Source: Natronosalvus halobius (GTDB lineage Archaea > Halobacteriota > Halobacteria > Halobacteriales > Natrialbaceae). Taken from it: a DNA stretch of 64,000 nucleotides. The position numbers were made by a program, and so were the translations under genes. The notes under the pieces were generated by a model. It was given only the letters and a program-made list of their open reading frames with translations, ran no database searches and was not told the DNA's origin. The DNA lies in assembly GCF_024138145.1 (NCBI RefSeq), contig NZ_CP099998.1, forward strand, positions 186,001-250,000, in the 5' to 3' direction. This document shows, piece after piece, positions 15,368 through 53,960 of the stretch. Numbering within the stretch: position 1 is the stretch's first letter; each line of letters begins with the position of its first letter.

Positions 15368-15550
15368 ATCGCCTCGAGTTCCATAAGCAAGGGTATCCTT
15401 TCGAACCTCGAAAAGACTTGACCAGGATGAACTCAAGGACTCAGAACAGGATGTTGATCAGCGGATTATTGAATGATAAGAAAGTATTGATCGTTTGCAG
15501 TATAGGAATCTAACCAGAATTCTTTTGGTGAATAATTGGCTGCAGTCCAT

Positions 15551-15915
15551 ACCCCCCACTTTTCACGAGTGTTTTGATCACATTGTGAAGACAGACAATC
15601 ACTCGGACCCCCCACATTTCATGAGTGTTTGGAAGAGTATGTCTATCGGCCAAATTGGCTGAGGTTAGAGATCAAGGAGATTAGGGAAATAGCACCCCCA
15701 CCCCCCACTTTTCACGAGTGTTTGGGGCAGAAGTGAATACGGAAACAATGTCTGACGTTCCGCTAGAAGATCAATGGTGTGAATAGAACGTCTCTAGCTC
15801 CATTGCGGATTTTGTTATGGCTAGAGTGACTTATAGTTTCCCCAGCTAGTAGTCTCCGTCAGAGATCCCCACCCACCTCTTCTCAAAAACTCTCGTGAAA
15901 TATGGGGGGAGGGGG
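15551..15915. other. Replication origin region with ORB-like repeats
   Basis: Three direct copies of a repeat like CCCCACTTTTCACGAGTG occur at 15551-15577, 15607-15632 and 15700-15726. An inverted copy (ACTCTCGTGAAATATGGGGG) is at 15889-15908, just before the Orc gene. A fifth copy lies after that gene at 17299-17322. A G/C-rich end with TTTCACGAGTG is the usual haloarchaeal origin-recognition-box pattern. The stretch between the third and fourth repeat (15727-15888) is A/T-richer and may be the unwinding element. Confidence 0.82.
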
Positions 15916-16006
15916 TTCTGTTCTATTAGATACTGAGGAATCTTATGAAACCCGTGAAACTCGTGAACTAGTGGTTTTATGACCCATTGGTTGAATGTGA
16001 CTTGCA

Positions 16007-17209
16007 ATGGGGTTGGAACCGTTTACCAAAGACTCGACGATCTTTCGTGACGAGAACGTCCTTCGGGATAGTCACACTCCAAAGACACTGATCGAACGGG
16101 ATGAGGAGTTGACGGCCTATCAATCCGCCCTTCGTCCCGTGGTAAATGGTGCACAGCCAAAGAACCTCTTTTTGTACGGTCAGACAGGTGTTGGAAAAAC
16201 GCTGGCGACCAAATTAGTCCTTGAACGGCTCTCTACTGACCTCGAGCCGATGGCCGACGTCGATCTTCACACTGTTTTCCTGAACTGCAAATCGCTCTCC
16301 TCGAGTTATCAGGTGGCAGCCAACCTCGTCAACGAGTTTCGCGAGCCTGACAACCAGATCAAGACCACTGGCTACCCATCTGGAATGATCAACCAAATGC
16401 TCTGGGACCATTTGAACGACCTCGAGGCCTCTCACTGTCTCATCGTGCTTGACGAAGTTGATTCGATTGGGAACGACGATGACATTCTCTACCAGGTTCC
16501 TCGATCGAACGATAACGGTCTTGTCGATGGCACTCAAGTTGGAGTGATCGGCATCTCCAACGATTTTACGTTCCGGGATAACCTCTCCGCCCGAGTCAAA
16601 GATTCACTCTGCGATGAGGAGATCCTGTTTTCGCCGTATGACGCAAACCAACTTCGACGGATCCTCGAACAGCGTGCTGAACAGGCGTTTCATGATGATG
16701 TCCTCGATGACAATGTGATCCCACTAGCGGCGGCCTTTGCAGGCCAAAGTAGCGGGTCTGCACGGCAAGCCCTTCGTCGGTTATACAAGGCAGGCGACAT
16801 CGCTCGAGATCAGGGTGCAACTCTCGTCACTGAAGGGCATATTCGTCTCGCTGATCGTGCGGTTGAACGCGATAAAGTATGGGAGGAGTTACTTCGGGTG
16901 CCTTCGCATTCGAAGCTCACCCTGTATGCGTTGTTGATGCTTGAAGCCGAGGGGGAACTCCCAGCTAAACGGTCGGCAATCTACAAGCGATATCGTATTG
17001 CTGCTAATCGCATTGATATCGATCCGCGGACGGATCGAACGGTACATGACCGGTTATCTCAGCTCACGCTCAAGGGATTCCTTGACGTTGAAGAGAAAAA
17101 CAAAGGCCCAAAGGGCGGCTCTTACTACCAGTATCAGTTCTCGATTCGGCCCGAACTCGTTACTGAGGCACTCTCTGAAGACTCTCGAGTAGGCGAGTTA
17201 TTTGATTGA
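16007..17209 (+). CDS. cdc6: Orc1/Cdc6 replication initiator
   Basis: The 400-residue AAA+ protein has Walker A (GQTGVGKT, residues 58-65), Walker B (LIVLDEVDSI) and sensor 1 (VIGISNDFTFRD). A sensor 2 arginine lies in SGSARQALRRLY. A C-terminal winged helix follows from about residue 300 (SKLTLYALLMLEAEGE...RTVHDRLSQLTLKGFLDVEEKNKG). It is full length for the family and binds ORBs to start replication. ORB-like repeats flank it on both sides, and a TATA-like TTTTATGAC at 15974-15982 would give a leaderless transcript. Haloarchaea have many such genes; this one probably serves an accessory or integrated-plasmid origin. Confidence 0.95.
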   Translation: MGLEPFTKDSTIFRDENVLRDSHTPKTLIERDEELTAYQSALRPVVNGAQPKNLFLYGQTGVGKTLATKLVLERLSTDLEPMADVDLHTVFLNCKSLSSSYQVAANLVNEFREPDNQIKTTGYPSGMINQMLWDHLNDLEASHCLIVLDEVDSIGNDDDILYQVPRSNDNGLVDGTQVGVIGISNDFTFRDNLSARVKDSLCDEEILFSPYDANQLRRILEQRAEQAFHDDVLDDNVIPLAAAFAGQSSGSARQALRRLYKAGDIARDQGATLVTEGHIRLADRAVERDKVWEELLRVPSHSKLTLYALLMLEAEGELPAKRSAIYKRYRIAANRIDIDPRTDRTVHDRLSQLTLKGFLDVEEKNKGPKGGSYYQYQFSIRPELVTEALSEDSRVGELFD

Positions 17210-17298
17210 TTCCCCAAGTTGAGGTTCTTGTTAACTCCTGTTTTAACTGCAAAAGTTGCGGCGGAAATTACGGCTCCATTCGTTCGCTCTTGACCGAC

Positions 17299-17322
17299 AC
17301 CCCCCACATTTCACGAGTGTTG
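17299..17322 (+). repeat. ORB-like repeat downstream of the Orc gene
   Basis: CCCCACATTTCACGAGTG with a leading C run, in the same orientation as the three repeats upstream of the Orc gene, 90 nt after its stop. Confidence 0.75.
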
Positions 17323-17605
17323 TAAGCATACAACTAATGAATATGGCTTTGTTTAAGTATAGGCTGGTGCGCTGATTGGTCAATTGCTGGGAGCGCATGA
17401 TATTGTGAGATCTGAAGTACAGAAAGCGATACTGGAGGTTGTGAAAAGCGGTCCTGGAGGATCGTAACGGGTTTTTCTAACTCTATACAGCGGCATTTAG
17501 GGGGCCCTGCTCACAATGTATGTATCGCGACGACGGTCAGTCGCAAAATTTCCTCAATGCATTCGATGAGTCCTTCGCATCGATGGCCCCAATTTCAAAC
17601 TCTCG
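17323..17605. other. Non-coding stretch after the origin
   Basis: No gene seen. No further ORB-like copy was found in this stretch. Confidence 0.4.
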
Positions 17606-19087: not shown

Positions 19088-19187
19088 AATGTCCCTCGAC
19101 CCTTGTCTCTGTTGGTGGGGGCGGTATCTACTTCCCCTGTCTTGACCGACCTGTTCTATCTGATCGACCATCAACGCCTGCCACATT

Positions 19188-19764
19188 CCGTCCTGTATTC
19201 AACAGACCGTGATCAAACTACCGAGGCGCTGTCAAAAGTGACATACAAGATACGGGGGAGAAGTTCATCACGACAGGTTCGTTTGTGGAACGCGATTCCG
19301 CTGAGTTCTGCCGCTCAGTACCCGCATTTACTGTTCGCTGAATGCAGAACTCTGAGTGCAGGCGTGGCAATAATGGACACGGCGGTATAGCTTTATACGA
19401 ATTCGGGCCGGTATCATCACCCGTCCTGGAGACTTACCGTGGCATCCTGCATACGACCCAACGGCTCTCCAGTGACGTACTCAGCCATCGCCGGCAAAAC
19501 CCTGTCTTACGCCAGGGTTTTTCGATCGGCTGGAAATGTGCAGAGTGATCAATAACCATCCTGTACTGAGCGATGCGTGCTTGCCCTGTATTGATATTTT
19601 TTAGTGTCTGAAGAAATCACAAGCGACCGGTTTCCCGTCACCCTCAATGCTGTGGCAGTCGTTCGAGCGGGGACCTCTCGTGTCTGGCACCAACTGCTTG
19701 ACTGTCTAGGGGATCGATTCTGGTATGGAAATACTCATGGGACTCAGGAACGGTCGTCCCGAAT
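19188..19764. other. Non-coding stretch before the MFS gene
   Basis: No gene recognised on either strand. CCTGTATTCAACAG at about 19193 resembles the 67-nt repeat end but no full copy is present. The promoter of the MFS gene is probably in the last 100 nt. Confidence 0.4.
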
Positions 19765-21000
19765 GTGAGAATTCGGCTTCGTGGGGCGAAAGACGAGGGA
19801 AGGTTCGTTCTCGGAGCGGTCATCGTCAGTACGTTTTTCATTGGCTTCGGCGGCGGCGTGATTTTCCCCATCCTGCCAAATCTCGGTGCTGTTCTCGGAA
19901 TCTCTCCGTTTCTCGTCGGTATTATCCTGAGTGCGAACCGGTTTTCACGGCTATTTGCGAACGCACCGGCTGGGAGCCTCGTGGACCGGTTCGGGACGAG
20001 GAAACCATTCGTCATTGGGATGTTCATCCAGGGTCTCTCCACGTCCGGCTACGTTATCGCCATGATCGCACCACTTCCCGAAGTGTGGTTCATGGCTGCG
20101 CGCCTCTTCTGGGGTGTCGGGAGTGCGCTCGTCTTTGCGACTGCGTACACGATCGCGGACGATATCAGCGACGGTGGATCGCGGGGTTCGAATATGGGGC
20201 TCATCAGAGGCGGCGTCCTTTTCGGGTTCCCGACGGGGGTAGTCCTCGGTGGGCTCGTCAGTGAATTCGCCGGAAATGTCGTCGCGTTCACCGTCGCTAC
20301 TGGTTTCGCGTTCTTTGCCAGTGCCGTCGCGTACCTGACGGTGCCCGAAACACACGTCGAAGGAGGAGCGAATCAGTCAGTCAAACCGTGGGACATCAAT
20401 ACGAGTCTCCCCGCGGTCACGGTTGGCCTGGTGAACTTTGCCGTGTTGTTCGTCTACATCGGTGCGTTGTTCGCAACGTTAGTCGTGTTTCTCGACCAGA
20501 ACCAACTCAGCGTCTTCGGCTTCGATGCTCAGGGCTCCTCGGGGCTGTTCATGGGGCTCACCGTCATCGCTGCGGGTCTATCGATGTATGTCGGTGGGTA
20601 CGTCAGCGATCGGAACCAGTCGCGTGTCCCGGTTTTACTCGTATTCCTGGTCGTTACGTCGATCGGGTTCGTACTGCTCGCGCTCGCGAATTCGGTACCG
20701 ACGCTGGCGATCGCCTGCCTGTGTATCGGACTCGGGCAAGGCGGAACCAGCGGGCCACTGATGGCACTGTTAGGTGACCTCGTCGCCGATGGCGAGATGG
20801 GCCGTGCTGTGGGGACGAACAACGTGTTCGGGGATATCGGCGGTGGGTTCGGCCCCATTGTCACGCTCCCAGTCGTCGATATCGTCGGATTTTGGCCAGT
20901 TTATCTCTGCTGTGCGGCCATGCCGCTCGTCGCAGCCTCGATCCTCTTGGGCGGTGTCCGACGCGAAACTGGGGACTTCCTCCCGAGCGTCGGGTCCTAA
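19765..21000 (+). CDS. MFS transporter
   Basis: The 411-residue protein has about 12 membrane segments, starting with FVLGAVIVSTFFIGFGGGVIFPIL. The loop after helix 2 carries the MFS motif A equivalent (AGSLVDRFGTRKPFVIG), and a second version (GGYVSDRNQSRVPVLLV) follows in the C-terminal half. Likely a proton-coupled exporter of the drug-resistance type; the substrate cannot be read from sequence. Translation seems to begin at a GTG (VRIRLRGAKDEGRF); no ATG lies before the first helix in frame. It stands alone. Confidence 0.88.
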   Translation: MRIRLRGAKDEGRFVLGAVIVSTFFIGFGGGVIFPILPNLGAVLGISPFLVGIILSANRFSRLFANAPAGSLVDRFGTRKPFVIGMFIQGLSTSGYVIAMIAPLPEVWFMAARLFWGVGSALVFATAYTIADDISDGGSRGSNMGLIRGGVLFGFPTGVVLGGLVSEFAGNVVAFTVATGFAFFASAVAYLTVPETHVEGGANQSVKPWDINTSLPAVTVGLVNFAVLFVYIGALFATLVVFLDQNQLSVFGFDAQGSSGLFMGLTVIAAGLSMYVGGYVSDRNQSRVPVLLVFLVVTSIGFVLLALANSVPTLAIACLCIGLGQGGTSGPLMALLGDLVADGEMGRAVGTNNVFGDIGGGFGPIVTLPVVDIVGFWPVYLCCAAMPLVAASILLGGVRRETGDFLPSVGS

Positions 21001-21076
21001 CGTGGTGTCCGCTGTGGCTTCCATAGCAATTTCTTGAGACGAGGCTCCCGATCACGAAACGTGCACACGACAGTTC

Positions 21077-21108
21077 CTCTATATCTCGCACGACGTTCTT
21101 GACAGATG
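21077..21108 (+). repeat. 5' half of a 67-nt repeat
   Basis: CTCTATATCTCGCACGAC... with TTGACAG at the same offset matches the first 30 or so positions of the copies at 46346 and 49143. The expected ATACACAG end is missing. Confidence 0.45.
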
Positions 21109-21182
21109 CCGAGTGAATCAATGGGCTAATCGGTACGTGAGTCCCCTTTACTGATCGATACCTGCACCACCTGTATTGATCG

Positions 21183-42560: not shown

Positions 42561-42860
42561 AGATAGCGATTTTAATACATAGAAATAGTAAGGAGATTGT
42601 ATTCAGCCGAGTATTAACGCCGCGAGGAGATTGTTTTCATCACTCTAATTCGCTGGAAAGCCCTGACACAATGACTCTAACAGCTATGCTGAAATTCTTG
42701 ACCAATGATAAGTGTCTGTGACCGTGCTGAATACACAGCGCGTATCTCGCAATAAAAGGGCGTTCAAATCGAACACTCCCGGTTCGCTCAATACAGGCGG
42801 TTCACCGGGCGTCCAGATGCGAATTGAACAGGTCTGGTGGACCACTGAGAGACTCGGATG
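42561..42860. other. Non-coding stretch with a degenerate repeat end
   Basis: No gene seen. GTGCTGAATACACAGCGCG ends at about 42742 and matches the right end of the 67-nt repeats, but the left end is not conserved. Confidence 0.45.
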
Positions 42861-43412
42861 CTACTTTGAAACGTAGTTCTCATCGAGAGCGACGACTTCG
42901 TTCCGTTTCCGATCGACGAAGAGCGCATCCTGCCATTCAGTCTCGTCGGTATCCGTCGCATCCGTGTCCGTAACGTCTTCAAGAGCTTCGAGTCGGGCGA
43001 CGTTATCGAATTTGGCCGCAGAGAGTGATTCGTGACACTGCTCGCCGATTGCCTCGATTTTGTGCCGAGCTCCACCCGGCACGTAGACGAACTCCATCGG
43101 CCCGATTTCGAGCGTTTGATGGCTCCCATCTTCCCGTTCGAGGGTATACCTGGCCCGCCCATCAAGACACATATTTACCTCGTCGAGACCCGGGACGTGT
43201 GTATGCCAATCGATCTTTTTGGAGGGCTCCATCTCGAAGTAGAGCAATCTGAACTCGTTTGTTCTGATAACCAGTGGAGTACTCCTAACACCTTCGGAAT
43301 CCGTATCCTCGGGATTCTCGGTCCCAATCTTGTACATCGTTTGGTCGGGAAGGTGAGTACGGGCAAGTTCCTCGGGGGTCAGTTCTGATTTAGGAACCTC
43401 GTCCTTTGTCAT
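42861..43412 (-). CDS. Cupin-domain protein
   Basis: The 183-residue protein has a single cupin barrel: WHTHVPGLDEVNMCLDGRARYTL (motif 1, with H-x-H and E) and GPMEFVYVPGGARHKIEAIGEQ (motif 2, with the late H). It probably binds a metal. Many cupins of this size are dioxygenases or sensors; none can be chosen here. It has no operon partner and lies beside a complete IS5 element. Confidence 0.82.
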   Translation of the reverse strand: MTKDEVPKSELTPEELARTHLPDQTMYKIGTENPEDTDSEGVRSTPLVIRTNEFRLLYFEMEPSKKIDWHTHVPGLDEVNMCLDGRARYTLEREDGSHQTLEIGPMEFVYVPGGARHKIEAIGEQCHESLSAAKFDNVARLEALEDVTDTDATDTDETEWQDALFVDRKRNEVVALDENYVSK

Positions 43413-43549
43413 AACTGGCCATTATGAAGAATGACCTTATACTTATACATACAGAAGAAAAATGATATAGTGTTTGCAGAGTCTGCGAACATATAATCTA
43501 CGCCGTGCCAACGAGAGACAAAGGAACCGACTTGCTGCATAGAGCCTCT

Positions 43550-44530
43550 GGGCGTTGTTTAGACGCCTGAATTTACTGGTTTGACCCCTCGATTGCGCGT
43601 TCGATGTTTCGCACCGCTGATTTCATGACAAGTTCGCGGAATTGACCGAACCACGTTCTAGCCCACAGCGTCTCACCGTATCGCTGCCGCAATCCGAAAA
43701 ACACTGATTCAGCATTCGAACGCTGGTTATACGCCCGATCGTGGATGAGTAAGTTTCTCGCCCATCCTCGGAAACCTGGGCCGCGTTGCGGAATCAGCGG
43801 TGTGATACTTTCAGCACGTAACCTCGTGCGAAGTGCTTCCCAGTCGTATCCTTTATCCGCCGCCACAGCCGTCAAATCGTCGAGATTCCGCACCAATACT
43901 TGCCAACCAACCTGTGTATCGTGCGGTTGTTTCATCGAACAGTGTATATCTAGAATCGCACTCGTTTCACAATCGACTAGCAGCGTGGTTTTCACTGCCT
44001 CGAACGTGTAATCCGTCCGTTTCGCATAGTGCTGGCTCGCTTGGACACGATCCACGCCAGTTGCGTCGATTGCTTGTACATCTCCGAGTTCGTACAGTTC
44101 GATCGATGCGTCGAGCATTGCTCGCCACCGCTTCATCGGAATCGCTTGCTTCCGCGCACAGATCGTGGAGAAATGAGGGAGCGTTTCAACGGTTAAATCG
44201 AGTGATTCTGTAACTCTCGGCATTTCTCGCAGAACATCCATCAGCTTCCTGTAATCGTGATTGAGATACTCTTTGAACCCCTGAACGGCGAGAATTACCC
44301 AGTCGGCATACCCGTCTTTTCCGGGTCGGTATGCCGGAGCTGGCTCGCCAGCGACGGCTTTTTGGGCGAGCGATACAACCTTCTCTGTGAAGCGGGAGGT
44401 CATCGTGTGCACAACGAACCCGTCCCGCTTCACTTCCTAGTAAATTTGGTATTTTCTCCGAGCTACTAGCACGACGATATGAGTTCGATCGGTTCTACAC
44501 TGCCAACGTTTGAGCGTCTAAACAAGGCCT
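43550..44530 (-). mobile_element. Complete IS5-family insertion sequence
   Basis: Terminal inverted repeats TTGTTTAGACGC (43555-43566) and GCGTCTAAACAA (44514-44525) flank the transposase gene; the match continues imperfectly on both sides. No clear target duplication was found. A 67-nt repeat begins 9 nt beyond the right terminal repeat. Confidence 0.8.
43573..44403 (-). CDS. IS5-family transposase
   Basis: The protein is about 276 residues long from the ATG at 44403 (MTSRFTEKVVSLAQKAVAG). DDE residues are seen in VQAIDATGVDR (first D), AVAADKGYDWEAL (second D) and RSNAESVFFGLRQRYG (E). A YxxxR-like context near the glutamate fits the IS5 group. Codons are intact throughout, so the enzyme may be active. 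It is related to the dead copy at 21183-21700. Confidence 0.9.
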   Translation of the reverse strand: MTSRFTEKVVSLAQKAVAGEPAPAYRPGKDGYADWVILAVQGFKEYLNHDYRKLMDVLREMPRVTESLDLTVETLPHFSTICARKQAIPMKRWRAMLDASIELYELGDVQAIDATGVDRVQASQHYAKRTDYTFEAVKTTLLVDCETSAILDIHCSMKQPHDTQVGWQVLVRNLDDLTAVAADKGYDWEALRTRLRAESITPLIPQRGPGFRGWARNLLIHDRAYNQRSNAESVFFGLRQRYGETLWARTWFGQFRELVMKSAVRNIERAIEGSNQ

Positions 44531-44533
44531 ATT

Positions 44534-44600
44534 CTCTGTATTCAGCAGCCCCGAACTGACAGTGTCACGGTAGTCTGCTAGGCTGGTGCTGCATACACAG
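44534..44600 (+). repeat. 67-nt repeat, copy 1
   Basis: Begins CTCTGTATTCAGCA and ends TGCTGCATACACAG, with CTGAC at position 23 and GGTAG at 36. The ends pair with each other at 12 of 14 positions. Confidence 0.75.
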
Positions 44601-44727
44601 CGCGAATGTTGCACGGGACGAAGGCCGATCTACAAGAGTCGATGATCGTTCAGTACAGTAGTTAGACGGACCCCATCGGCTCCCAAGACACACGGGGTGA
44701 CACAGACGAAGTGGACGAGTAGGAGGG

Positions 44728-45081
44728 TTACAACGGCGACTCCGTCTCTTCGAGTCCTCTGACAAAGTCTGTTAGCGTATCGGTGAGTGTACTTGCGCGT
44801 TCATCAGATTTGAGTCTCGAAAAGCGGACGATGATCATGCTCTCCCCACCCGTGTAACGAACCCTCTCGAGGGTTTCGGTTCCTTCCCAAATCCTGGATA
44901 CTTCGACCAGTCCATGCACCCTGTGACTGTATGTCTCGCCTTGCTCAATTTCCCGACCCGAATCTGTTGCCTCCGTAGATCTGGACAGATGCCCGATAAT
45001 ATTCCCCGCCGGTTTCTGTTTCGCCTTGTCCACGGGCGGTCTGCTCTCGGTCACCCGAATCGGTTCCCGCGGGTTTCTCAT
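44728..45081 (-). CDS. Small haloarchaeal protein, paralogue of the 18827-19087 gene
   Basis: The 117-residue protein has the same core as the 18827-19087 product: GETYSHRVHGLVEVSRIWEGTETLERVRYTGGESMIIVRFSR, then LTDTLTDFVRGLEE. The first 45 residues are basic and may not all be translated; an internal ATG is not available near the core. Function unknown. It is followed on the left by an IS and 67-nt repeat. Confidence 0.6.
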   Translation of the reverse strand: MRNPREPIRVTESRPPVDKAKQKPAGNIIGHLSRSTEATDSGREIEQGETYSHRVHGLVEVSRIWEGTETLERVRYTGGESMIIVRFSRLKSDERASTLTDTLTDFVRGLEETESPL

Positions 45082-45282
45082 AGGGGCGGTACCTTGAACC
45101 CATATTTAAATTCCGAGAACGATGGCAAGCGTTTCCGTTCACTAATGCTACCTTTCATCTGCTGACACAGTTTTAGGGCTGGTTGAAACGATTCCCATTC
45201 TCCCAACTGGGAGGATAGGCCGAGCGGAGCGTGCAAAATACACGGCACGAATCGTGCACGATTAATCGATGCTGCGTCCGTC

Positions 45283-45705
45283 TTACTCGCCGTCAGCCGC
45301 TGCGTCCTCGGAGCGCTCGGAGACTGTCACCCAGCCGTCCGCCTCCACGCTTACTTTGTAGCCGTGATACCGAAACTCGACCGTCGAATCCGTGCCGTTC
45401 CGGTTGGCCTCGGGGCGCCCGAACAAGGCGTCGTCGATGCCCGCAATGTCCACCACCTCGTAGAGGGGCGGGTTCGTGATCTCAGTGATGGGGACGTCCT
45501 CGGCTTCCGCGACTGCGCCGATGATCACTGTAGTCAGATCGCGGGATTCGTCGGGATTGTAGTGGGCTTGCGTCACGAATGTCCAGCTCCCATCTGGTGT
45601 ACTCTCCCGCCCTGATGCGCCATGCGTGTCGTCGTCGTCGGGAATCTCAGTGCGGTTCTCCTTGGTCTCGGTTGAGGGATTTGAATCAGATCGCTTCTCA
45701 TCCAT
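45283..45705 (-). CDS. HalOD1 output-domain protein
   Basis: The 140-residue protein has an acidic head of about 35 residues, then the HalOD1 fold. This comprises DLTTVIIGAVAEAEDVPITEITNPPLYEVVDIAGIDDALF, STVEFRYHGYKVSVEADGWVTV and an acidic tail. Its ATG overlaps the stop of the winged-helix gene. This repeats the HalOD1/winged-helix pairing seen at 5606-6480, in reversed order. Confidence 0.8.
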   Translation of the reverse strand: MDEKRSDSNPSTETKENRTEIPDDDDTHGASGRESTPDGSWTFVTQAHYNPDESRDLTTVIIGAVAEAEDVPITEITNPPLYEVVDIAGIDDALFGRPEANRNGTDSTVEFRYHGYKVSVEADGWVTVSERSEDAAADGE

Positions 45706-46172
45706 CAGTGGTCACTCCAGTTCGTACTCACTCCGTGCGTGTGTTTCTCCTGTAACGCGTCAATACTCGCCCCGGCGCCTTGCAGGACCGCGAGCACCTG
45801 CGGGGCGTTTGCGCTCGCGATGATGATCGCCTCGTCACCAGTCTCGTACTCGATGATGTCTAATTCGACCAACTTCGGGACGTGGGCGTGGTGAAGCGAG
45901 ACGTACATCTCGTCGCGGTCGAACCCGGCGACGTCCGCTTCGGGAATGTCCCGCTCCCAGGCGACGAGTTTAGTCGCCAATTCCGGGAGCGTCCAGCGAG
46001 AACTGGAGAGGAGCGAGTAGCAGAGATAGCGTCGTCTCGGATGAGCCAGCGCCTCGTACACGAACTCTAACTCCAGGATTTCCGCCGGCGGTGGATGTGA
46101 TTTCCGGATGTAGGCCTCGACGTTTCGGCGCAGGTCATCGCCAGCGTCTGGTCGCTCCGATTCGTCGCCCAT
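45705..46172 (-). CDS. Haloarchaeal winged-helix protein (DUF7344-like)
   Basis: About 155 residues from the ATG at 46172 (MGDESERPD). The winged helix is VYEALAHPRRRYLCYSLLSSSRWTLPELATKLVAWE...EMYVSLHHAHVPKLVELDIIEYE, with the H-H-x-H-x-P-K-L recognition helix typical of these regulators. It is transcribed with the HalOD1 gene (one-base overlap), so the two likely form one signalling unit. Confidence 0.8.
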   Translation of the reverse strand: MGDESERPDAGDDLRRNVEAYIRKSHPPPAEILELEFVYEALAHPRRRYLCYSLLSSSRWTLPELATKLVAWERDIPEADVAGFDRDEMYVSLHHAHVPKLVELDIIEYETGDEAIIIASANAPQVLAVLQGAGASIDALQEKHTHGVSTNWSDH

Positions 46173-46345
46173 GGCGTGTGTTAATCCCACACACGCTTAA
46201 CTCCTCTCAACGCCTATCGAACTGGACGGTCTGGGTTCACTGACAAAGAGGTTCAGCACTGATTCGCGTCAAGCCACGGTGTCAGCAACGCCTCGACTGG
46301 GAGCAAATTGGTTCAATCTCCCGGGAGCACGCTGCTGAACCCATC

Positions 46346-46412
46346 CTCTGTATCTCGCACGACGGTCCTGACTGTATTCTGGTAAGACGTTCAGACAATG
46401 CTGAATACACAG
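46346..46412 (+). repeat. 67-nt repeat, copy 2
   Basis: CTCTGTATCTCGCACGAC... to TGCTGAATACACAG. Identical over all 67 positions to the copy at 49143-49209 by eye. CTGAC is at position 23 and GGTA at 36. Confidence 0.8.
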
Positions 46413-46540
46413 AGCGTATAGTGCGGAGTACCTGCCGACGAAACTGGCGTTAGCTATCCATGCGAACCGACCGTGATGTGATTCTGAAAATAGTTGAACG
46501 ATCTTCTATCACACTGTTCGACTCCAATCTGCACCGAGAT

Positions 46541-46720
46541 CTATACCATTGCCATACCGATACCGATCCCCATTGCCAAATCGTTCATCGCAACTCCCAG
46601 GGCTACTCCAACTCCTGCCCCAACTGCGATGCCTTAACCCATTTTATTCTTGGTTCCGTTTTCTCCTTGTTTTCCGGATATATAACCCGCCTCACTTTAC
46701 TGCATGATAAGTCCCAAGAA
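46541..46720 (-). pseudogene. Short glycine-rich membrane protein with a premature stop
   Basis: On the minus strand the frame reads ISGKQGENGTKNKMG, a TAA at 46634-46636, then GIAVGAGVGVALGVAMNDL and a second glycine-rich run to a TAG at 46541. Without that TAA it would be a small glycine-zipper protein of about 60 residues of a type common in archaea. CAA to TAA is the simplest explanation. No start is clear. The remaining 46413-46915 sequence shows no other gene. Confidence 0.4.
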
Positions 46721-46915
46721 TACTTGGTCAAATCTCAAAGGAAACCCAATGGGTCCCCCTTTGTTTGCTGTCTCAGTCGAGCCAGTGGCCATGGGTTCGG
46801 CAGATTTTGCTGGCTACGTTGTCTCCGTGGTCGGTCTTTTCGGTGACTCACGGGCTTGATGAGTACGATAAATAACTTCGAAGCGAAGCCGCTAAACTCA
46901 TCGAAATCGGTCGAT

Positions 46916-47203
46916 TCATCGATCGAGTTCCTCGATGAGTGCTTCGAGCGACTGGATGTGGGTTTCGAACAGCTCTTCGCCACGGTCGGTCAATCGATAA
47001 CTCGTCTGTGGGCTCCGATCCACGAACTGTTTGGTCACGGTAACACAATCAGCGTCTTCCATCTTCTGGATGTGACTGGCCAGATTTCCCTCGGTAATGC
47101 CGAGTTCGGTTTTCAGGTCCGTAAAGGTCGTCTCACCGTTCGCATACAGGTGTGCGAAAATTTGCAATCGTGTTTGTTGGTGGACAAGCTTGTCGAACTC
47201 CAT
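46916..47203 (-). CDS. Winged-helix transcription regulator
   Basis: The 95-residue protein starts at the ATG at 47203 (MEFDKLVHQQTRLQIFAHLYANGETTFTDLKTELGITEGNLASHIQKMEDADCVTV). It has an ArsR/MarR-type winged helix followed by FVDRSPQTSYRLTDRGEELFETHIQSLEAL. It begins 1 nt after the stop of the membrane-protein gene; the two form one transcript, divergent from a CPBP protease gene. It probably regulates both. Confidence 0.85.
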   Translation of the reverse strand: MEFDKLVHQQTRLQIFAHLYANGETTFTDLKTELGITEGNLASHIQKMEDADCVTVTKQFVDRSPQTSYRLTDRGEELFETHIQSLEALIEELDR

Positions 47204-47204
47204 A

Positions 47205-47822
47205 TTATACCCGTGAAAGGACGACGTACGAGCCGATGTTATGTGTAGCAAAACCGATTCCGAGCACGGCGAACTCCCACCCGGTGAGGAGAGGGACGTG
47301 TGGGATAATCGCGGCTAACACGAGCAGCCAGCCGCCTCCGATATAGAACGCATAGCGGTCGGCTGTCCGGATGTTGTAGGCAGCGAGCAGCTGGCCCATG
47401 TACAGATAGGCGATGCCGCTGATTGCGCCGCCAGCGACTACCCCCACTACGATCAAGTCTTCAAATGCGAGCTGTTCTAAGATGGGGAGGAGTCCGACGG
47501 CGAGGGCCAAGGCTCCCGCACCAGACGTGATATTCCACGCGGTCCAACTCGGAATGCCGGTCGTCGGTCGATCGTATTCGTGGAGAATCCGCCACGCCAC
47601 GAGTTGATGGGCGGAAAACACGCTGACGAGGAAAACGACGAGTAGCGGAGAGAACCCTTCGCGGAGTCCGAGTTGTACGATTGGGAGGGCAATCCCCAAG
47701 CCGATGCCTTCGACGAGCCAAAAGCGCCACCAGTAGGGGTATTCCTCCGCCAATCCCATCGCTTCCTTGATCTGGCCGAGTTCCTCCTGAAGTCCCTCGG
47801 CACTTGGTTCTGTCTCGGTCAT
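47205..47822 (-). CDS. Membrane protein of six helices, unknown
   Basis: About 205 residues from the ATG at 47822 (MTETEPSAEGLQEELGQIKEAMG). It has five to six membrane segments (LVEGIGLGIALPIVQLGL, LLVVFLVSVFSAHQLVAWRIL, AGALALAVGLLPILEQLAF, LIVVGVVAGGAISGIAYLYM, GGWLLVLAAIIPHVPLL). No transport motif seen. The upstream frame to 47978 is not haloarchaeal in composition. The gene order membrane protein - regulator // CPBP protease suggests a joint role at the membrane. Confidence 0.7.
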   Translation of the reverse strand: MTETEPSAEGLQEELGQIKEAMGLAEEYPYWWRFWLVEGIGLGIALPIVQLGLREGFSPLLVVFLVSVFSAHQLVAWRILHEYDRPTTGIPSWTAWNITSGAGALALAVGLLPILEQLAFEDLIVVGVVAGGAISGIAYLYMGQLLAAYNIRTADRYAFYIGGGWLLVLAAIIPHVPLLTGWEFAVLGIGFATHNIGSYVVLSRV

Positions 47823-47957
47823 GCAGATTGGCACCCACCCACTACTCGAGTGCGTTTCGTGTAGCGGTTGAAGCAGTTGGTGTCCGTCGATTCCGGTGGC
47901 ATGGATCACAATACACCACACAATGCAAAATAATTTCCGATAAAAAGTGAGTTTGCA

Positions 47958-48893
47958 ATGCAAAGTACTATGTCTCATCCTCTCAGTAGTACAGCCGTAA
48001 TGTCGAAAAAAGTCAATTCTCGGTCGCCTCGACTCGGGCGGATCGGCGTCTTCGTTGTAGGCCGCGAAATAGTGGCCTTCTTCGTGCTGACGCTGGTCCT
48101 TTCGTGGACGGTATGGGCACCTGGAGCATTGGGGCTCGTCGATTTCGATTCGCTCACGCTGCTTGTCGTTGTCGTCGGCGGCTTCGGTCCGTTGGTCGCG
48201 GCGGCGCTCGTGACGTGGCTCGTCGGTGGGTCGCTACGAGCCTGGATCGGGCAGGTGCTCCGCTGGCGCGTCCGTCCTCGGTGGTACCTCGCCGCGCTCG
48301 GAGTTCCACTCGTCGTGTTTGCGGCGACGAGTATCGTCTATCTCGCGCTCGGGAATGCAATCGAGCCGTCGGATGTTCTCCAGCAGGTGCCGGTCTACGC
48401 GCTGCCGCTCATCTTCGTTTTCAATATGGTGTTCGTGTTCCTGCTGGGTGGTGGGCAAGAGGAACTGGGGTGGCGTGGGTTCGCCCTGCCGCGACTGCTC
48501 GACCGGTTCGACGCAGTGACCGCGAGCCTCGTAATCGGTGTCGTATGGGCGATCTGGCACCTTCCGTTGTTCATGATGGAAGGAACGAGCCAGTACAGTG
48601 GCCAGTTCGTTCCGTACGCGACCACCGTGCTGGCGCTGTCGATTCTGTTCACGTGGCTCTACCGGGCCACCGGACGCAGCGTGTTGCTGGCGATGATTCT
48701 CCACGCCAGCTACAACAGCGCGCCGGTGGTGATTCCGTTCCAACCGGCCCAGACCGGTACTGTGGACTGGCTCCTGGCAGCGAGCGTCTGGGTGCTTGCG
48801 CTCGGTCTGGTGGCCGTCTATGGCCGCGACCTCCGTTTTGGTGACTCCGAGGGCTCTGAGACGGTGGATGGCCGTGTCCCACCGACTACCTGA
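47958..48893 (+). CDS. CPBP-family intramembrane protease
   Basis: The 311-residue protein has the CPBP motifs GGGQEELGWRGFALPRLLDRF (EExxxR), WAIWHLPLFMM (H) and ILHASYNS (H/N), on about eight helices. The start could be 47958, 47970 or 48000; the last (MSKKVNSRSPRLGRIGVF) leaves the first helix intact. A near palindrome TTTGCAATGCAAA lies just before or within the start region and could be the site of the divergent regulator. It is related to the CPBP protein at 23854-24771. Confidence 0.88.
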   Translation: MQSTMSHPLSSTAVMSKKVNSRSPRLGRIGVFVVGREIVAFFVLTLVLSWTVWAPGALGLVDFDSLTLLVVVVGGFGPLVAAALVTWLVGGSLRAWIGQVLRWRVRPRWYLAALGVPLVVFAATSIVYLALGNAIEPSDVLQQVPVYALPLIFVFNMVFVFLLGGGQEELGWRGFALPRLLDRFDAVTASLVIGVVWAIWHLPLFMMEGTSQYSGQFVPYATTVLALSILFTWLYRATGRSVLLAMILHASYNSAPVVIPFQPAQTGTVDWLLAASVWVLALGLVAVYGRDLRFGDSEGSETVDGRVPPTT

Positions 48894-49142
48894 CTGGGTT
48901 TCGGACAGTCTGAAGGGTGTCGGAATACGGACGATTCGGCTGTGGTCACCGGGAGATCACCCGAGTATAGTTCAATGGAGTGGTCCCCAGCGTAGTGTAT
49001 GTCTGTGAACTGAATTGGCACTGATAATCTCGTTCTGTGAGGACGAGGTTCAACATTGTCTCCAGTAACTACGCATGTCTACTGAACGGCTGTTTCGTTT
49101 CGAATGTCCTGAAACGAACGATGACTGTCTGCTGCACACATC
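48894..49142. other. Non-coding stretch
   Basis: No gene seen. Together with 49210-49329 it makes an intergenic region of 480 nt that holds a 67-nt repeat. Confidence 0.4.
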
Positions 49143-49209
49143 CTCTGTATCTCGCACGACGGTCCTGACTGTATTCTGGTAAGACGTTCAGACAATGCTG
49201 AATACACAG
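49143..49209 (+). repeat. 67-nt repeat, copy 3
   Basis: Identical by eye to the copy at 46346-46412, 2.8 kb away, including the CTCTGTAT start and ATACACAG end. Confidence 0.8.
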
Positions 49210-49329
49210 CGCGAATGGGGCAGGGCTGAGGGTTGATCTGTAAAGGGTTGGTCGGTTAGTACAGGCGGGGTACGCCCTGTCCAGCCAAGACTACGCATCT
49301 CTCACAGGAGTACCTACAACTCCTCTTTT

Positions 49330-49372
49330 AGTTATCCAAATAACTATTTCCGGGCGAGTCTAAATAATTCAA
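49330..49372 (+). promoter_or_regulatory. Promoter and palindrome before the Tat lipoprotein gene
   Basis: AGTTATCCAAATAACT (49330-49345) is a perfect 6+4+6 palindrome, followed by CTAAATAATTC about 12-20 nt before the ATG at 49376. It could be an operator plus TATA region. Confidence 0.45.
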
Positions 49373-49375
49373 CAA

Positions 49376-50164
49376 ATGAGACGACGACGGTATCTACTTG
49401 GATTGCTCACGGTACCAGCTGCTGGCGTAGCGGGGTGTCTTTCACGTGATTCAAGTCCGGATGACGGAACTGATTTGACCCCCGAGGATGACCGAGACGT
49501 CGAGACGGTTGCCACGGAGACGTTCGACGACGATTTCACCCCAATCTGTGCCGAAGGTGAATCTCTCGAATCGGATATTGAGGGATTATACGCGGAACTC
49601 GTGACGGATCACGAGTTTTTCAGAGACACAGAGAGCGGTCGATACGGCGTTCGTGGTCGAATTGCGGCGAGGGAAGATGGGAGTTTTCCGGAGGTCCAAG
49701 CAGAATTTTCCGACGAGTCCCATGCAAAGGATACAGGATTCCGCGTTGCTGAGGACGAGACGTATTTGTTCACGGTGGTGACTTCTGAAGGCGAGCCCAA
49801 CGCGATAGATGGGTATTCGCTCACCGTCGAAGAAGGCGGGGTTGACGATATCGGGACTGTCCCTGAGGAGTACGCAACGATTGATGGGGAGTGGGGCCAG
49901 ATTGGAACGTACGCTGACGTTTCGGTGTATGGATACGCTGGGACAGTTACCAATGATCACACGAAGGATGTCAGGCTATACCCACACCTGAAGGCGTACC
50001 TCGATGAGACGACAGTGGCATACGCTGGCAAAAGTACTGAATTTTTTGACGATCTCGCTCCGGGAGACACGCAAACAGTCTACTTCCCCTATCCACGATG
50101 CGATCCCGCGAAAATTGACCACGTTGAGGGATGGCTCGAGTGGTCGACGATGAATAACCCGTAG
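49376..50164 (+). CDS. Tat-exported lipoprotein with FxLYD-like domain
   Basis: The 262-residue protein starts MRRRRYLLGLLTVPAAGVAGCLS: twin arginines, a hydrophobic core and a lipobox (AGC), so it is probably exported folded by Tat and lipid-anchored, as is common in haloarchaea. The mature part is acidic. The C-terminal third (YGYAGTVTNDHTKDVRLYPHLKAYLDET...FDDLAPGDTQTVYFPYP) matches the FxLYD/DUF3426 type beta sandwich. Function unknown. Confidence 0.82.
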   Translation: MRRRRYLLGLLTVPAAGVAGCLSRDSSPDDGTDLTPEDDRDVETVATETFDDDFTPICAEGESLESDIEGLYAELVTDHEFFRDTESGRYGVRGRIAAREDGSFPEVQAEFSDESHAKDTGFRVAEDETYLFTVVTSEGEPNAIDGYSLTVEEGGVDDIGTVPEEYATIDGEWGQIGTYADVSVYGYAGTVTNDHTKDVRLYPHLKAYLDETTVAYAGKSTEFFDDLAPGDTQTVYFPYPRCDPAKIDHVEGWLEWSTMNNP

Positions 50165-50357
50165 CTCGCTTCGCGGAAGAAACGAAGAATCTCTCTTGAA
50201 GCCAGCAAATCCAATCAGTCTCTCGCAATAGTGTTGATCACTGGCCATAATTCAAAGCCAGATATAATTGGGTGACACAACCAGTAAGCACCCGTATGTA
50301 GCGGTTGGTTCCGGGCTGAGTGTGTGAAATAAACAGTGCTACCGTGCTGCATCCATC
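50165..50357. other. Non-coding stretch
   Basis: No gene seen between the lipoprotein and the next repeat. Confidence 0.35.
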
Positions 50358-50424
50358 CTCTGTATCTTGCACACCACTTCTGACAGCAGCTCGGTAGTTC
50401 GTTGTGCCTCTGCAAGATACAAAG
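50358..50424 (+). repeat. 67-nt repeat, copy 4
   Basis: CTCTGTATCTTGCA at the start and TGCAAGATACAAAG at the end pair at 13 of 14 positions. The interior is strongly changed against the other copies but keeps CTGAC at 23 and GGTAG at 36 with no gap. Confidence 0.75.
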
Positions 50425-50702
50425 TGTGGATCTGTCACGGGATTGTGCCGCCGTACGACGAAAATGGGAGCAGACCGGCACGTTTAGGATGATTCAGTTC
50501 GTTTCGAGTAAAATGACCAGGCTCCCGAGCGTCGAGTCAATCGCTGTCATCGGGCCGGTGCTGGAGGCAGTCGTCACCGTCCGACCGATACTGGCGACCG
50601 TTGGAGCGTTCTCGAGGATTGCGGGGCTTCTGGTCACGGGCGTGAGCGCCCCAGAACGACGACGGAGACGACGAGCCTGTCGCCGGGAACAAGCTGCCAG
50701 CG
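50425..50702. other. Stretch with a possible membrane-protein fragment
   Basis: A plus-strand frame from about 50490 reads TRLPSVESIAVIGPVLEAVVTVRPILATVGAFSRIAGLLVTG and then turns arginine-rich. It could be the remains of a membrane gene. It is not strong enough to call. Confidence 0.3.
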
Positions 50703-51692
50703 ATGATTGAAACCAGAGAGATGCGGGCCGTCGTCATGCGTGGCTTTGGCTCGCCCGACGTCCTCGAACTCACGGCGGTCGAGAAGCCGACACCCGCGGA
50801 CGACGAGGTGCTGATACGGACCCGTGCGACGACCGTGACCGCGGGCGACTGCGAGTTCCGACGGCTCGACCTCCCGCTCTCCTTTCGGCTCCCAGTCTGG
50901 CTCTACGTGAAGCTCTGGAAGGGGAATCGGGTCGTCCCCGGGCAGGAGGTCGCCGGGGAGATCGAATCGGTCGGCGACGACGTGACGCGATTCGTGCCGG
51001 GCGACCAGGTGTTCGCCGCGACGTCGTTCCGGTTCGGCGGGGCTGCCGAGTACGTCTGTCTCCCCGAGTCGTATCCCATCGCGAGGATACCGGAACCCAT
51101 GACCGTCGAGGAGGCCGTCACGCTGCCGACGGGCGGACTGAACGCGATGCACTTCCTGCGGAGCGCGAACGTGGAGGACGGCGACGCGGTCCTGATCAAC
51201 GGGGCCGGTGGCAGCATCGGCACGTACGCCGTCCAGATCGCTACGGCCTGGGGAGCCGACGTGACGTGTGTTGATAGCGGAGAGAAGCTGGACGTGCTGC
51301 GCTCGCTCGGGGCGAACTACGTCGTCGATTACACGCGAGAGGAGTTCACCGACCGCGGCGAGCGCTACGACGTCGTCGTCGACGTCGTGGGTACGAGTCC
51401 GTTTTCGCGCACACTGCGCTGTCTGTCGATCGATGGTCGCTACGTCCTGGGCAATCCAACGCTGCTCGGGCGAATCAGGGGTGGTTGGACGAACTTAACC
51501 GGCGAGAGAATCGTCATCTCGTCCCTCGCCGGGTACGCGCCCGAGGACGTGGAGGCCCTCGTCGAACTCGTCGAAGCGGGCGAAGTGAGAGCGGTCGTCG
51601 ACAGGCGATATCCGCTCGACGAGATCGCCGACGCTCATCGATACGTCGAGAGTGGACGGAAAACGGGTAACGTGGTCATCGACGTGGTGTGA
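50703..51692 (+). CDS. Zinc-independent MDR-family NAD(P)-dependent oxidoreductase
   Basis: The 329-residue protein belongs to the medium-chain dehydrogenase/reductase superfamily, quinone-oxidoreductase branch. An N-terminal GroES-like part (AVVMRGFGSPDVLELTAVEKPTPADDEVLIRTRATTVTAGD) is followed by GAGGSIGTYAVQIATAWGA, the Rossmann nucleotide-binding loop. The structural-zinc cysteines are absent. ATGs at 50703 and 50721 are both possible starts. It is followed by a convergent Bat-type regulator. Confidence 0.88.
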   Translation: MIETREMRAVVMRGFGSPDVLELTAVEKPTPADDEVLIRTRATTVTAGDCEFRRLDLPLSFRLPVWLYVKLWKGNRVVPGQEVAGEIESVGDDVTRFVPGDQVFAATSFRFGGAAEYVCLPESYPIARIPEPMTVEEAVTLPTGGLNAMHFLRSANVEDGDAVLINGAGGSIGTYAVQIATAWGADVTCVDSGEKLDVLRSLGANYVVDYTREEFTDRGERYDVVVDVVGTSPFSRTLRCLSIDGRYVLGNPTLLGRIRGGWTNLTGERIVISSLAGYAPEDVEALVELVEAGEVRAVVDRRYPLDEIADAHRYVESGRKTGNVVIDVV

Positions 51693-51738
51693 TACGGTCC
51701 GATTGGGCGCCCACCGGGAAGTGTCGGTCGACCGACTC

Positions 51739-52413
51739 CTACTTTAGGGGACCGAACTCGTCGAGCGCCGCGGTGATCACTTTTCCCTCCGCCTTCTGGA
51801 GGTGATCGCTCGCCGTCTGTGGCGCACAGCCGAGCTCGGCGGCGATCTCTTTCAGCGTGGCACCGCGGGGCTGTTCGTAGTATCCGAGGTCGGCGGCGAT
51901 CTCGAGAGCTTCGCATTGGCGAGCGCTGAGACTCGCCCATGCGGTGTCGATGTTTCCGCGGAATTCGCCGATCTCCTCGATGGTGACCACCATGTCCACC
52001 GGATCATGCTCGAACATCTCCTGGAGCTGGGCGGGGTCGCCGATGACGCGGGCACGCATCATTCCGTCGCGGTAGACGACCGGCATCCGCGGGATCACGC
52101 CGTGAACGCCTGTTTCGTGGCGTTGAGCTTCGACCAGTGGCTCCCCCTGCGGCTTGATGACGACGAGGACGTAGCCGGCGTCCTCGCCTACGTGGACGGT
52201 CTCGACGGCCTCAATCGCTTGAATGTCCGAGGCCTCGGCAGCCAGGGCGGTCACGTCACCGTCGATTGCCACGAAGAACGTCTTGTAGTCATCGAGCGCC
52301 GTCATCATCTCTAGGACGCGCCCTTCCTCGATGGACGGCGAATGCGCGAGCAACGCGAAGATGGGCGGTGCGTCCTCTCGGTCCGCCCGGACGGTGGCCC
52401 GAAGGTGTTTCAC
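51739..52413 (-). CDS. Bat-type HTH-10 transcription regulator
   Basis: The 224-residue protein ends in an HTH-10 (bacterio-opsin activator) domain: LSARQCEALEIAADLGYYEQPRGATLKEIAAELGCAPQTASDHLQKAEGKVI. The first 150 residues are the usual haloarchaeal N-terminal sensing region (APPIFALLAHSPSIEEGRVLEMMTAL...). It is convergent with the oxidoreductase and divergent from the DUF4386 gene, which it may regulate. Confidence 0.88.
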   Translation of the reverse strand: MKHLRATVRADREDAPPIFALLAHSPSIEEGRVLEMMTALDDYKTFFVAIDGDVTALAAEASDIQAIEAVETVHVGEDAGYVLVVIKPQGEPLVEAQRHETGVHGVIPRMPVVYRDGMMRARVIGDPAQLQEMFEHDPVDMVVTIEEIGEFRGNIDTAWASLSARQCEALEIAADLGYYEQPRGATLKEIAAELGCAPQTASDHLQKAEGKVITAALDEFGPLK

Positions 52414-52498
52414 GCCAAGCTATCGCGCCACGCCACGATAAATGGAACGGCTATATCCTAAAAAACGCTCTTCGACGCCGCGTGCGTCTACATTACCG

Positions 52499-53266
52499 AT
52501 GAACTTCATACCGGAGGCATCAGATGCGGTACCGGGCGGCGACAGAACAGATCGATCGGTGCGGTCGGCGAGCGTAATCGGCGGCATCGGTCTCATATTG
52601 ATGCTCGTCCCCGCGCTCTTTGGCACGCTCGTCGTTGTGAAGGGGCTCGTGACGCCCGGCGACGCCACGGCGACCGCCCTCGCCATCCAGGACGCCGCGG
52701 GGATGTTCCGTCTCGGGATCGCAGGCTTGCTCGCCGTCGCGATCCTCGACGTGATCGTCGCGTGGGCGCTGTACACCGTCTTCGAGCCGGTGAACAGGCG
52801 CATTTCGCAGCTCGCCTTGCTCTTTCGCGTCGTCTACGCCGGCGTCTTCGTCGTCGCAATCAGCCAGCTCGTCGGCGTAATCGGGACGCTGACCGACCCC
52901 GACGCGCCGGCCGCCTACACGACTGACCAACTCCATGCACAGGCCATGCTCGACATCAACGCCTTCAACGACATTTGGAACGCCGGCCTGCTGCTGTTCG
53001 CCGTGCACCTGCTCCTACTCGGTTACCTAGCGTACCGGGCGGACTATGTGTCGACGCTCATTGGAATCCTCCTCGCTATCGCCGGGTTCGGTTACGCCAT
53101 CGACAGCATTGGTGCCGTCCTTGTCGCCGACTACTCGCTCCAGGTGACCATCGTGACCTTCGTCGGCGAGATCGTCTTGATCGGCTGGTTGCTGCTCAGG
53201 GGCCGCCGCGTGTCAGTGGACGCCGAGGATGCCACGTTGAACCCTCGGAGGGATTATGGCCGGTGA
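52499..53266 (+). CDS. DUF4386 membrane protein
   Basis: About 255 residues from the ATG at 52499. It has six to seven membrane helices (ASVIGGIGLILMLVPALFGTLVVV, GIAGLLAVAILDVIVAWALYTVF, LALLFRVVYAGVFVVAISQLVGVI and more) with the DUF4386 pattern ALYTVFEPVNRRISQLALLFRVVYA...LFAVHLLLLGYLAYRA. The earlier in-frame ATG at 52442 precedes a TATA-like CTATATCCTAAAA, so 52499 is preferred. Function unknown. Confidence 0.82.
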   Translation: MNFIPEASDAVPGGDRTDRSVRSASVIGGIGLILMLVPALFGTLVVVKGLVTPGDATATALAIQDAAGMFRLGIAGLLAVAILDVIVAWALYTVFEPVNRRISQLALLFRVVYAGVFVVAISQLVGVIGTLTDPDAPAAYTTDQLHAQAMLDINAFNDIWNAGLLLFAVHLLLLGYLAYRADYVSTLIGILLAIAGFGYAIDSIGAVLVADYSLQVTIVTFVGEIVLIGWLLLRGRRVSVDAEDATLNPRRDYGR

Positions 53267-53386
53267 ATTGAAGCGACAGGCCTGCAAGGCACCCGGCAGT
53301 ACCACCCCACTTCGTGTGTAAGGATTATGAGTTACTCATAGTATCCCCCGAAAAATCCCACCCCCTCTGAAGAGACAGATGCCTCG

Positions 53387-53657
53387 ATGCGTGTTGAGCA
53401 TCAATACGACGGAGATACACCGGCCAGCATTGCAATCTTGGAAGCCATCGCTACCATTGAGGACGTCGATCCAACGGACTCGCCAACTGACCTTGGGACC
53501 ACGCTCTATGATCAAATTGATCCACAGCACTTGACCAATTCGTCACCGGGAACAACGGTGACAGCGCTGTTACTGTAGATTTGACGGTTCACAACGCTAT
53601 CAGTACGATGTGCGAGTACATGATTCCGGTCAGCTCGTTACTGAGCGGATCACGTAG
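53387..53657 (+). pseudogene. HalOD1 gene broken by two frameshifts
   Basis: The first frame reads RVEHQYDGDTPASIAILEAIATIEDVDPTDSPTDLGTTLYDQIDPQ. A shift near 53528 continues with LDQFVTGNNGDSAVTVDLTVH, and another near 53595 with YQYDVRVHDSGQLVTERIT and a TAG at 53655-53657. Together these rebuild a normal HalOD1 domain of about 85 residues that aligns with 5606-5908. Confidence 0.8.
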
Positions 53658-53960
53658 CCAAGAGCAGGAATTTGAAACCGCACAGTAGGCACTTCTACTG
53701 GGAAATACATTCATTCCACACGAGGTGAAACAAACAATTCGATCGTGCTAAACTCATTCTTTGGATTCATCAGGCACCTCCTATCAATTTCCAAGGCCTT
53801 CAACAGAGCCACTCTAACCCAATAGAGACAACGAAAATATTTCGTGAAACGAAGAATCTCAGCAAATCGCTTTGCTTTTTCTATGTGAAACATGATAATT
53901 ATCGAGTCCAATCTGGATTGAAGCATAGAATTTTAAGCATTGGTACTAGGATGGAAGCAT
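53658..53960. other. Non-coding, A/T-richer stretch
   Basis: No gene seen. TTCAACAGAGCC at about 53800 resembles an IS6-type end. Contains the probable promoter of the PadR gene near 53930. Confidence 0.35.

Follow-up and report, generated by a model that had tools for sequence, protein, structure and literature searches.

In this study, we examined four 67-nt repeats in a 64,000-nt stretch of DNA from the haloarchaeon Natronosalvus halobius (the window; contig NZ_CP099998.1, positions 186,001 to 250,000), which lies on the 294-kb second replicon of the genome. The repeats are probably spacer modules of haloarchaeal gene-cassette arrays, similar in operation to dif modules and integrons, with paired sites that would be served by a tyrosine recombinase acting in trans. 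We place the probability of this reading at about 0.6. It draws on five features of the sequences compared: the anatomy of the repeats, their spread, the target duplications around the arrays, the turnover of cassettes inside one and the same insertion, and the position of breakpoints at the centres of palindromic sites. Haloarchaea exchange genes heavily between genera, and little is understood of the route taken by single accessory genes. A cassette format conserved in about 70% of the sampled genomes would offer such a route. If this is true, archaea came to stockpile exchangeable cassettes by means of sites that have no relation to attC, and many "hypothetical gene islands" become predictable cassette pools. 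The system is directly testable in culturable strains.

Anatomy of the Joint

The four copies (44534-44600, 46346-46412, 49143-49209, and 50358-50424, all on the + strand) are located exactly where the initial annotation had placed them. All are 67 nt long and align without gaps, copies 2 and 3 are identical in sequence, and none of the four lies within a gene called in this analysis, all as first described. The pattern CTCTGTATN{45,57}ATACA matched only these copies in the window and nothing in 100 shuffles. The initial annotation had made its repeat family depend on the existence of further copies; hundreds were found beyond the window. Searches of the N. halobius genome by patterns and models placed a fifth exact-pattern copy on the chromosome (C1:2002915), and two genomes of the same genus contain 15-16 pattern matches apiece. 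The length of 67 nt is kept almost without exception in the chromosomal and sister-species copies. What was missed at first is their role as punctuation between gene cassettes.

Each copy forms the central part of a larger joint, which consists of a 27-nt palindrome (box1), a 39-nt core, and a second 27-nt palindrome (box2). Alignment of the flanks revealed that conservation extends beyond the 67 nt on both sides and that each end of the repeat is half of a 27-nt palindrome. The consensus sequences are TGCTGCATACACC|CTCTGTATCTCGCA for box1 and TGCTGAATACASRG|CGCGNATNNNGCA for box2. Both boxes are imperfect palindromes with arms of 10-11 bp and a spacer of 5-7 nt, their centres are 66-67 bp apart, and the core between them bears a TGACAG..GGTAG motif. 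The length of the joint is rigid, with the exact model length in 193 of 217 full joints. Read as its reverse complement, box2 is a site of the same kind as box1, and the two alternate along arrays; their spacers differ from each other. In Natronosalvus, the cassette ends beside the boxes are also conserved over about 60 nt (e.g., 49079-49271), with GTGAAACAAAC.. on the 3' side and GATCGCTCAGTACAG on the 5' side; together they make up an outer inverted repeat.

In the window, the joints divide an 11.1-kb element (42682-53810). The element opens with an array start, S (42682-42751, +), made of an IS6-like terminal repeat (AGCTATGCTGAAA, three mismatches to GGCTCTGTTGAAA), a subterminal region, and a lone box2 (42725-42751); S is a half-joint match over m52-96 with 24 bits. 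Cassette 1 (42752-43532, -) carries a Cupin_2 gene (42861-43412; Pfam PF07883). The following box1 of copy 1 (43533-44533, -; left arm 43533-43541) is split by an insertion sequence (IS) at about 43551-44529 with a transposase gene at 43573-44433 (PF01609), and box2 of the same copy is at 44587-44613. Cassette 2 (44601-46332) holds three genes on the - strand (44728-45081, a HalOD1 gene at 45283-45705, and a DUF7344 gene at 45705-46190) and a degenerate half-site at 45213-45260. Joint 2 (46333-46425, +; 71 bits to the joint profile) has box1 at 46333-46359 and box2 at 46399-46425. Cassette 3 (46426-49129) encodes a winged-helix protein (46916-47251, -), a membrane protein (about 47205-47838, -), and a CAAX-type protease (47958-48893, +). 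Joint 3 (49130-49222, +; box1 49130-49156, box2 49196-49222) is followed by cassette 4 (49223-50344, +), with one lipoprotein-like gene (49376-50164) taken from the open reading frame (ORF) list and without a Pfam match. Joint 4 (50345-50437, +; box1 50345-50371, box2 50411-50437) scores 80 bits to the joint profile and has an E value of 6.2e-22 to the class-wide model. Cassette 5 (50438-53745) encodes a zinc-type dehydrogenase (50703-51692, +), an HTH_10 regulator (51739-52413, -), and a DUF4386 protein (52442-53266, +). The array end, T (53746-53810, +), consists of a degenerate box1 (53746-53772) and the terminal repeat CTTCAACAGAGCC, inverse to S.

The IS inside box1 of copy 1 ends in GGCC(G/T)TGTTTAGACGC. 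Such ends lie no more than 30 nt from a box arm at 16 of 22 places in the fetched loci (random expectation 1.3%); this IS therefore seems to target recombination-like sites.

Distribution and Cargo

We built a sequence-only model from 50 joints and scored only ten candidates per genome; it matched 280 of 391 sampled Halobacteria genomes, representing 69 of 86 genera. The same model had no match in about 165 non-Halobacteria genomes from a draw of the phylum. The exact pattern detected 34 stretches in a scan of 84,980 species, all haloarchaeal except one in a bacterial bin. Carriage by viruses was considered and rejected, the exact pattern being absent from 2.9 million viral contigs. No feature was annotated at the joints in the annotated plasmid records that were checked.

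The joints are clustered in arrays, where 144 of 150 pairs of neighbours share a strand. About 30 joints make up the largest array read (G061:C1, about 55-92 kb). Intervals between joints have a median of 894 nt (n = 181) and usually hold one ORF. The encoded proteins are diverse: 194 proteins fall into 133 clusters with no dominant family, each Pfam family detected among 104 representatives occurs in at most three, and similarity to defence proteins is rare. The array cargo includes no recognised transposase or recombinase, except inserted IS elements and a small recombinase beside one array (L051/L139).

Array Ends

Arrays open with the half-joint S and close with the half-joint T, the inverse of S, and in both an IS6-like tip, GGCTCTGTTGAAA, lies about 45 nt beyond the box. 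Of 38 candidate end pairs, 10 have target duplications that match in 7/8 bp or more, six of them perfectly, where 0.014 were expected. The element in the window has such terminal repeats and is flanked on both sides by the identical 8-bp sequence ACTCTAAC (42674-42681 and 53811-53818); no transposase was recognised in it apart from that of the inserted IS. A second cassette element with S/T-type ends lies at 4330-7858 (target duplication GAAAGAAA/GAAAGACA, 7/8), and two single-gene elements with perfect duplications are present on the chromosome (C1:1347727-1348987, ATAAATTT; C1:3124530-3124978, GCAGATGA). Since terminal repeats and target duplications occur without a transposase, arrays and single cassettes are transposon-like units.

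The 8-bp duplication and the GG..TGTTGAAA ends fit the IS6 family, and no autonomous copy with these ends was found. IS6 transposases were considered as the autonomous partner and rejected: full IS6 copies in the genus end differently, in GGCACTGTCTAGTT and GGCGGTGTTCAGATAA. A shared palindromic insertion target, GGCTCTGTTGAAA-N-TTTCAACAGAGCC, was found neither in eight genomes of the genus nor in the fetched loci.

These ends raise the question of whether the joints are remnants of transposons that merged. The boxes would then be transposase-binding repeats in the subterminal part of long terminal inverted repeats, the arrays would result from side-by-side insertions, and the 67-nt joint would be a scar formed after facing ends lost their tips. 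The long inverted repeats and 8-bp duplications at array ends agree with this, as do the single-gene elements, and the 67-nt unit can be read as a T end plus an S end minus the outer 15 and 24 nt. However, with its TGACAG..GGTAG core and a length of 67 nt that is constant in different genera, the joint is a distinct conserved module and not a variable scar; the joints of an array share one orientation; and cassettes swap at box centres while the ends remain in place. We consider such an origin unlikely, although less so than the other alternatives.

Exchange of Cassettes

The insertion in the window recurs in Natronosalvus rutilus, where it occupies the matching place on a related plasmid and is flanked by the same ACTCTAAC duplication (L046:8584-18067). 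Identity between the two sequences is about 95% until the box2 centre of S is reached; they become homologous again in T, around box1. The interiors (11.1 kb in the window, 9.5 kb in N. rutilus) have no gene cassette in common (the Cupin_2 cassette, for example, is missing from the N. rutilus version); only the joint units are alike, mostly at 84-96%. This pair is the clearest single evidence for the exchange of cargo on a constant platform.

Cassettes common to unrelated arrays lose homology at the centre of box1 or box2 and rarely in the core. No homology end fell between m35 and m64 in a first pass over shared cassettes, and nucleotide alignments placed the switch inside the box centre. Among 33 independent events, about 23 were placeable, with a posterior of 9.5 in box1, 10.2 in box2, and 3.3 in the 39-nt core. 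Likelihood placement gave breakpoint peaks at m11-22 and m80-88; the box centres are at m17 and m83. Two complete cassettes, from box2 centre to box1 centre, are shared between unlinked genomes (418 nt at 95.9% and 430 nt at 93.5%). Both (L134/L146 and L148/L136) end at T or S in one genome and at a full joint in the other.

Could the breakpoints reflect homologous recombination or gene conversion, with boxes that are conserved for another reason and give the host machinery its only homology for exchange? As the boxes are the only stretches common to different cassettes, breakpoints would be expected there. However, the identical stretch is only about 8-20 nt, which is short for general recombination; the breakpoints cluster at the box centres, which are less conserved; and the arms are conserved across 69 genera whatever the cargo. 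This explanation appears improbable.

The identity of copies 2 and 3 spans exactly 67 nt, and their flanks differ on both sides; the 67-nt unit has therefore moved or been copied as a module. This would also be expected if the unit were a tiny mobile element with palindromic sites as its targets, and Haloquadratum walsbyi is known to harbour small mobile repeats that have inverted ends, prefer palindromes, and lack a target duplication (PMC3119063). However, cassettes switch at the same points, making the 67-nt unit one of two alternating modules, and array orientation is fixed; an empty box1-box2 hybrid site was not recognised in the loci read, among which no systematic search for it was made. 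A tiny mobile element is thus a very unlikely explanation. The initial annotation had offered a very short miniature inverted-repeat transposable element (MITE), an idea that is not supported: the 67-nt unit sits between two palindromic sites in a fixed context without a target duplication of its own, and inspection of 25 listed copies revealed no direct repeat at the 67-nt borders.

The same annotation had observed that both arms change together and had called the repeat a structural DNA or RNA element. Within the genus, paired changes are indeed present (GCAGCA/TGCTGC, CTTGCA/TGCAAG, and TCAGCA/TGCTGA); across the class the signal is weak. Among 14 class-wide arm pairs, eight are invariant and only three have changes on both sides; paired cells make up 88.1%, compared with 84.6% for shuffles, with a covariation score of 0.150 vs 0.100. 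With class-wide covariation this weak and limited to three variable arm pairs, the data do not require a folded hairpin. An intergenic small RNA or regulatory RNA structure, which the pairing ends and the few covarying arm positions might suggest, is highly improbable: there is no Rfam match, on the given strand the folding of copies 1 and 2 is no more stable than that of shuffles (copy 4 alone exceeds them), and the flanking genes are unrelated and in both orientations. A structural DNA element fits, a small RNA is not supported, and the initial interpretation as a whole is partly supported.

Proposed Mechanism and Candidate Recombinases

Based on these comparisons, the order of an array is S, box2, gene cassette, box1, 67-nt module, box2, cassette, box1, and so on to T. 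The 27-nt boxes have the layout of tyrosine-recombinase core sites, and cassettes and 67-nt modules alternate with inversely oriented sites, like the C/D modules among the dif modules of Acinetobacter. We infer site-specific crossovers by a tyrosine recombinase acting in trans, with circles as intermediates. Tyrosine recombinases are the obvious candidate enzymes, given the 11-nt arms and 6-nt spacer of archaeal dif sites (PMC8371274). Since the spacers of box1 and box2 differ, box1 would recombine with box1 and box2 with box2 only, and this same-type pairing would explain the fixed orientation of the joints. A cassette would enter or leave as a circle together with one 67-nt module; alternatively, a single cassette may be exchanged via two crossovers. 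The whole array between its IS6-like terminal repeats could also move as one non-autonomous transposon.

Tyrosine recombinase genes adjoin some arrays (G002, G306, L051, and L054). Small recombinases and IntA/IntB recombinases were each tried as a proven partner; a joint was nearby in 4 of 30 loci per family, which is suggestive only, and neither was accepted. Of about 17 convergent IntA/IntB loci that were read from end to end, 5 contain joints, again suggestive only; some of these loci hold joint arrays, and most do not. A 223-aa integrase (L085) that adjoins a single-gene element was rejected, as its relatives in the same genome do not. As a separate observation, convergent IntA/IntB-type pairs (identity about 54%) have variable cargo between them, about 0.1-9 kb long, in about 15 haloarchaeal genomes (L252-L266, L269, and L271; e.g., G379:C1:1908879-1913188), and N. 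halobius itself has such a locus at C1:2941584-2944233.

Several observations weigh against cassette arrays served by a recombinase in trans. No recombinase or transposase tied to the system was found; the replicon that contains the window has no PF00589 match to a tyrosine recombinase, and most recombinase loci scanned have no joint nearby. The L054 recombinase gene ends at the terminal repeat, so some of the adjacency between recombinases and arrays may be an insertion-site effect. Some copies have degenerate boxes, and about a third of the breakpoint events are out of register through indels. Ordinary recombination in the shared stretches would give similar breakpoints. The direction of cassette genes is random (95 same, 107 opposite), unlike in integrons.

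A more specific version of the cassette-array reading seems possible to us, and we hold it tentatively. It would be a haloarchaeal cassette-capture system independent of integrons, with a class-wide cassette pool, a dedicated tyrosine recombinase (perhaps one of the families beside arrays), paired sites 66-67 bp apart, an obligatory gene-less 67-nt partner, and arrays moved between replicons as transposons.

Other Features of the Window

A membrane transporter gene (19765-21000) lies between a degenerate joint (19179-19272, -) and a lone T-like half (21075-21126); the region 19179-21126 is perhaps a decayed cassette. An imperfect 33-nt repeat (CCCCCCACTTTTCACGAGTGTTTGG) is present in four copies within 15544-17324, around an ORF for 400 aa (16007-17209). 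The product looks like an Orc1/Cdc6 initiator, and 15544-17324 is possibly the replication origin of this replicon.

Comparison with Known Systems

No description of these arrays was found in the literature searched, which comprised open-licence papers only. Among the closest known systems are the plasmid dif (pdif) modules of Acinetobacter, in which small gene modules are bounded by two-armed sites of about 28 bp with a short spacer, recognised by XerC/XerD supplied in trans (PMC13141974). Two module types alternate there because the sites are inversely oriented; since excision takes place only between sites that are in direct orientation and have matching spacers, a module is excised jointly with its neighbour (PMC13141974). 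The haloarchaeal arrays likewise consist of alternating modules, with two-armed sites in inverse orientation at their borders. However, the sequences of the sites are unrelated: the haloarchaeal arms TGCTGMATACA and TGTATNNNGCA do not match the XerC/XerD dif consensus, with pdif arms of type NTTTCGTATAA and TTATGTTAAAT (PMC13141974). Further differences are that every second haloarchaeal module is a conserved gene-less 67-nt unit, that the arrays are bounded by transposon-like ends with 8-bp duplications, and that they are confined to Halobacteria.

Transposon-based and repetitive elements share some of these traits. Non-autonomous Tn3-family elements, such as Tn3-derived inverted-repeat miniature elements (TIMEs) and those of the IS101 type, have terminal inverted repeats and direct repeats, are mobilised in trans, and can carry genes; a built-in resolution site has been demonstrated for IS101 and is suspected for TIMEs (PMC4133298). 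These are bacterial, with Tn3-type 38-bp ends and 5-bp duplications, and have no cassette arrays or alternating spacer modules. The MITEs, palindrome-associated transposable elements (PATEs), and small mobile repeats of H. walsbyi are likewise transposase-free haloarchaeal repeats (PMC3119063), but they are about 110 bp or longer, mostly non-coding, and have not been described as cassette separators. In the IS6 family, the terminal repeat is tipped by GG and contains a TGTT core, and target duplications measure 8 bp (PMC7986276), as at the array ends; in contrast, the haloarchaeal units contain no transposase, and full IS6 copies of the genus end otherwise.

Integrons, including attC clusters without an integrase, resemble the arrays in their cargo of small, diverse, mostly single-gene exchangeable cassettes with a conserved palindromic site between them. 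Cassettes are common to genomes in different order, many arrays have no recombinase nearby, and the lone half-site at the start of haloarchaeal arrays recalls attI. The differences are in the sites and the genes: each haloarchaeal joint has two complete palindromic sites vs one folded attC, no conserved GTTRRRY of the attC core (RYYYAAC ... GTTRRRY) was present in alignments of 50-63 joints, and cassette genes are in both orientations. No relative of IntI was identified, in an analysis that included no search for the IntI-specific domain. Archaeal integrons have so far been reported from 75 metagenome-assembled genomes of nine phyla, and the main text of that report does not mention Halobacteria or haloarchaea (PMC9668308). 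The system appears to work like dif modules and integrons yet fails the sequence tests for both, and the joints with their cassettes look like an undescribed haloarchaeal counterpart of bacterial integrons.

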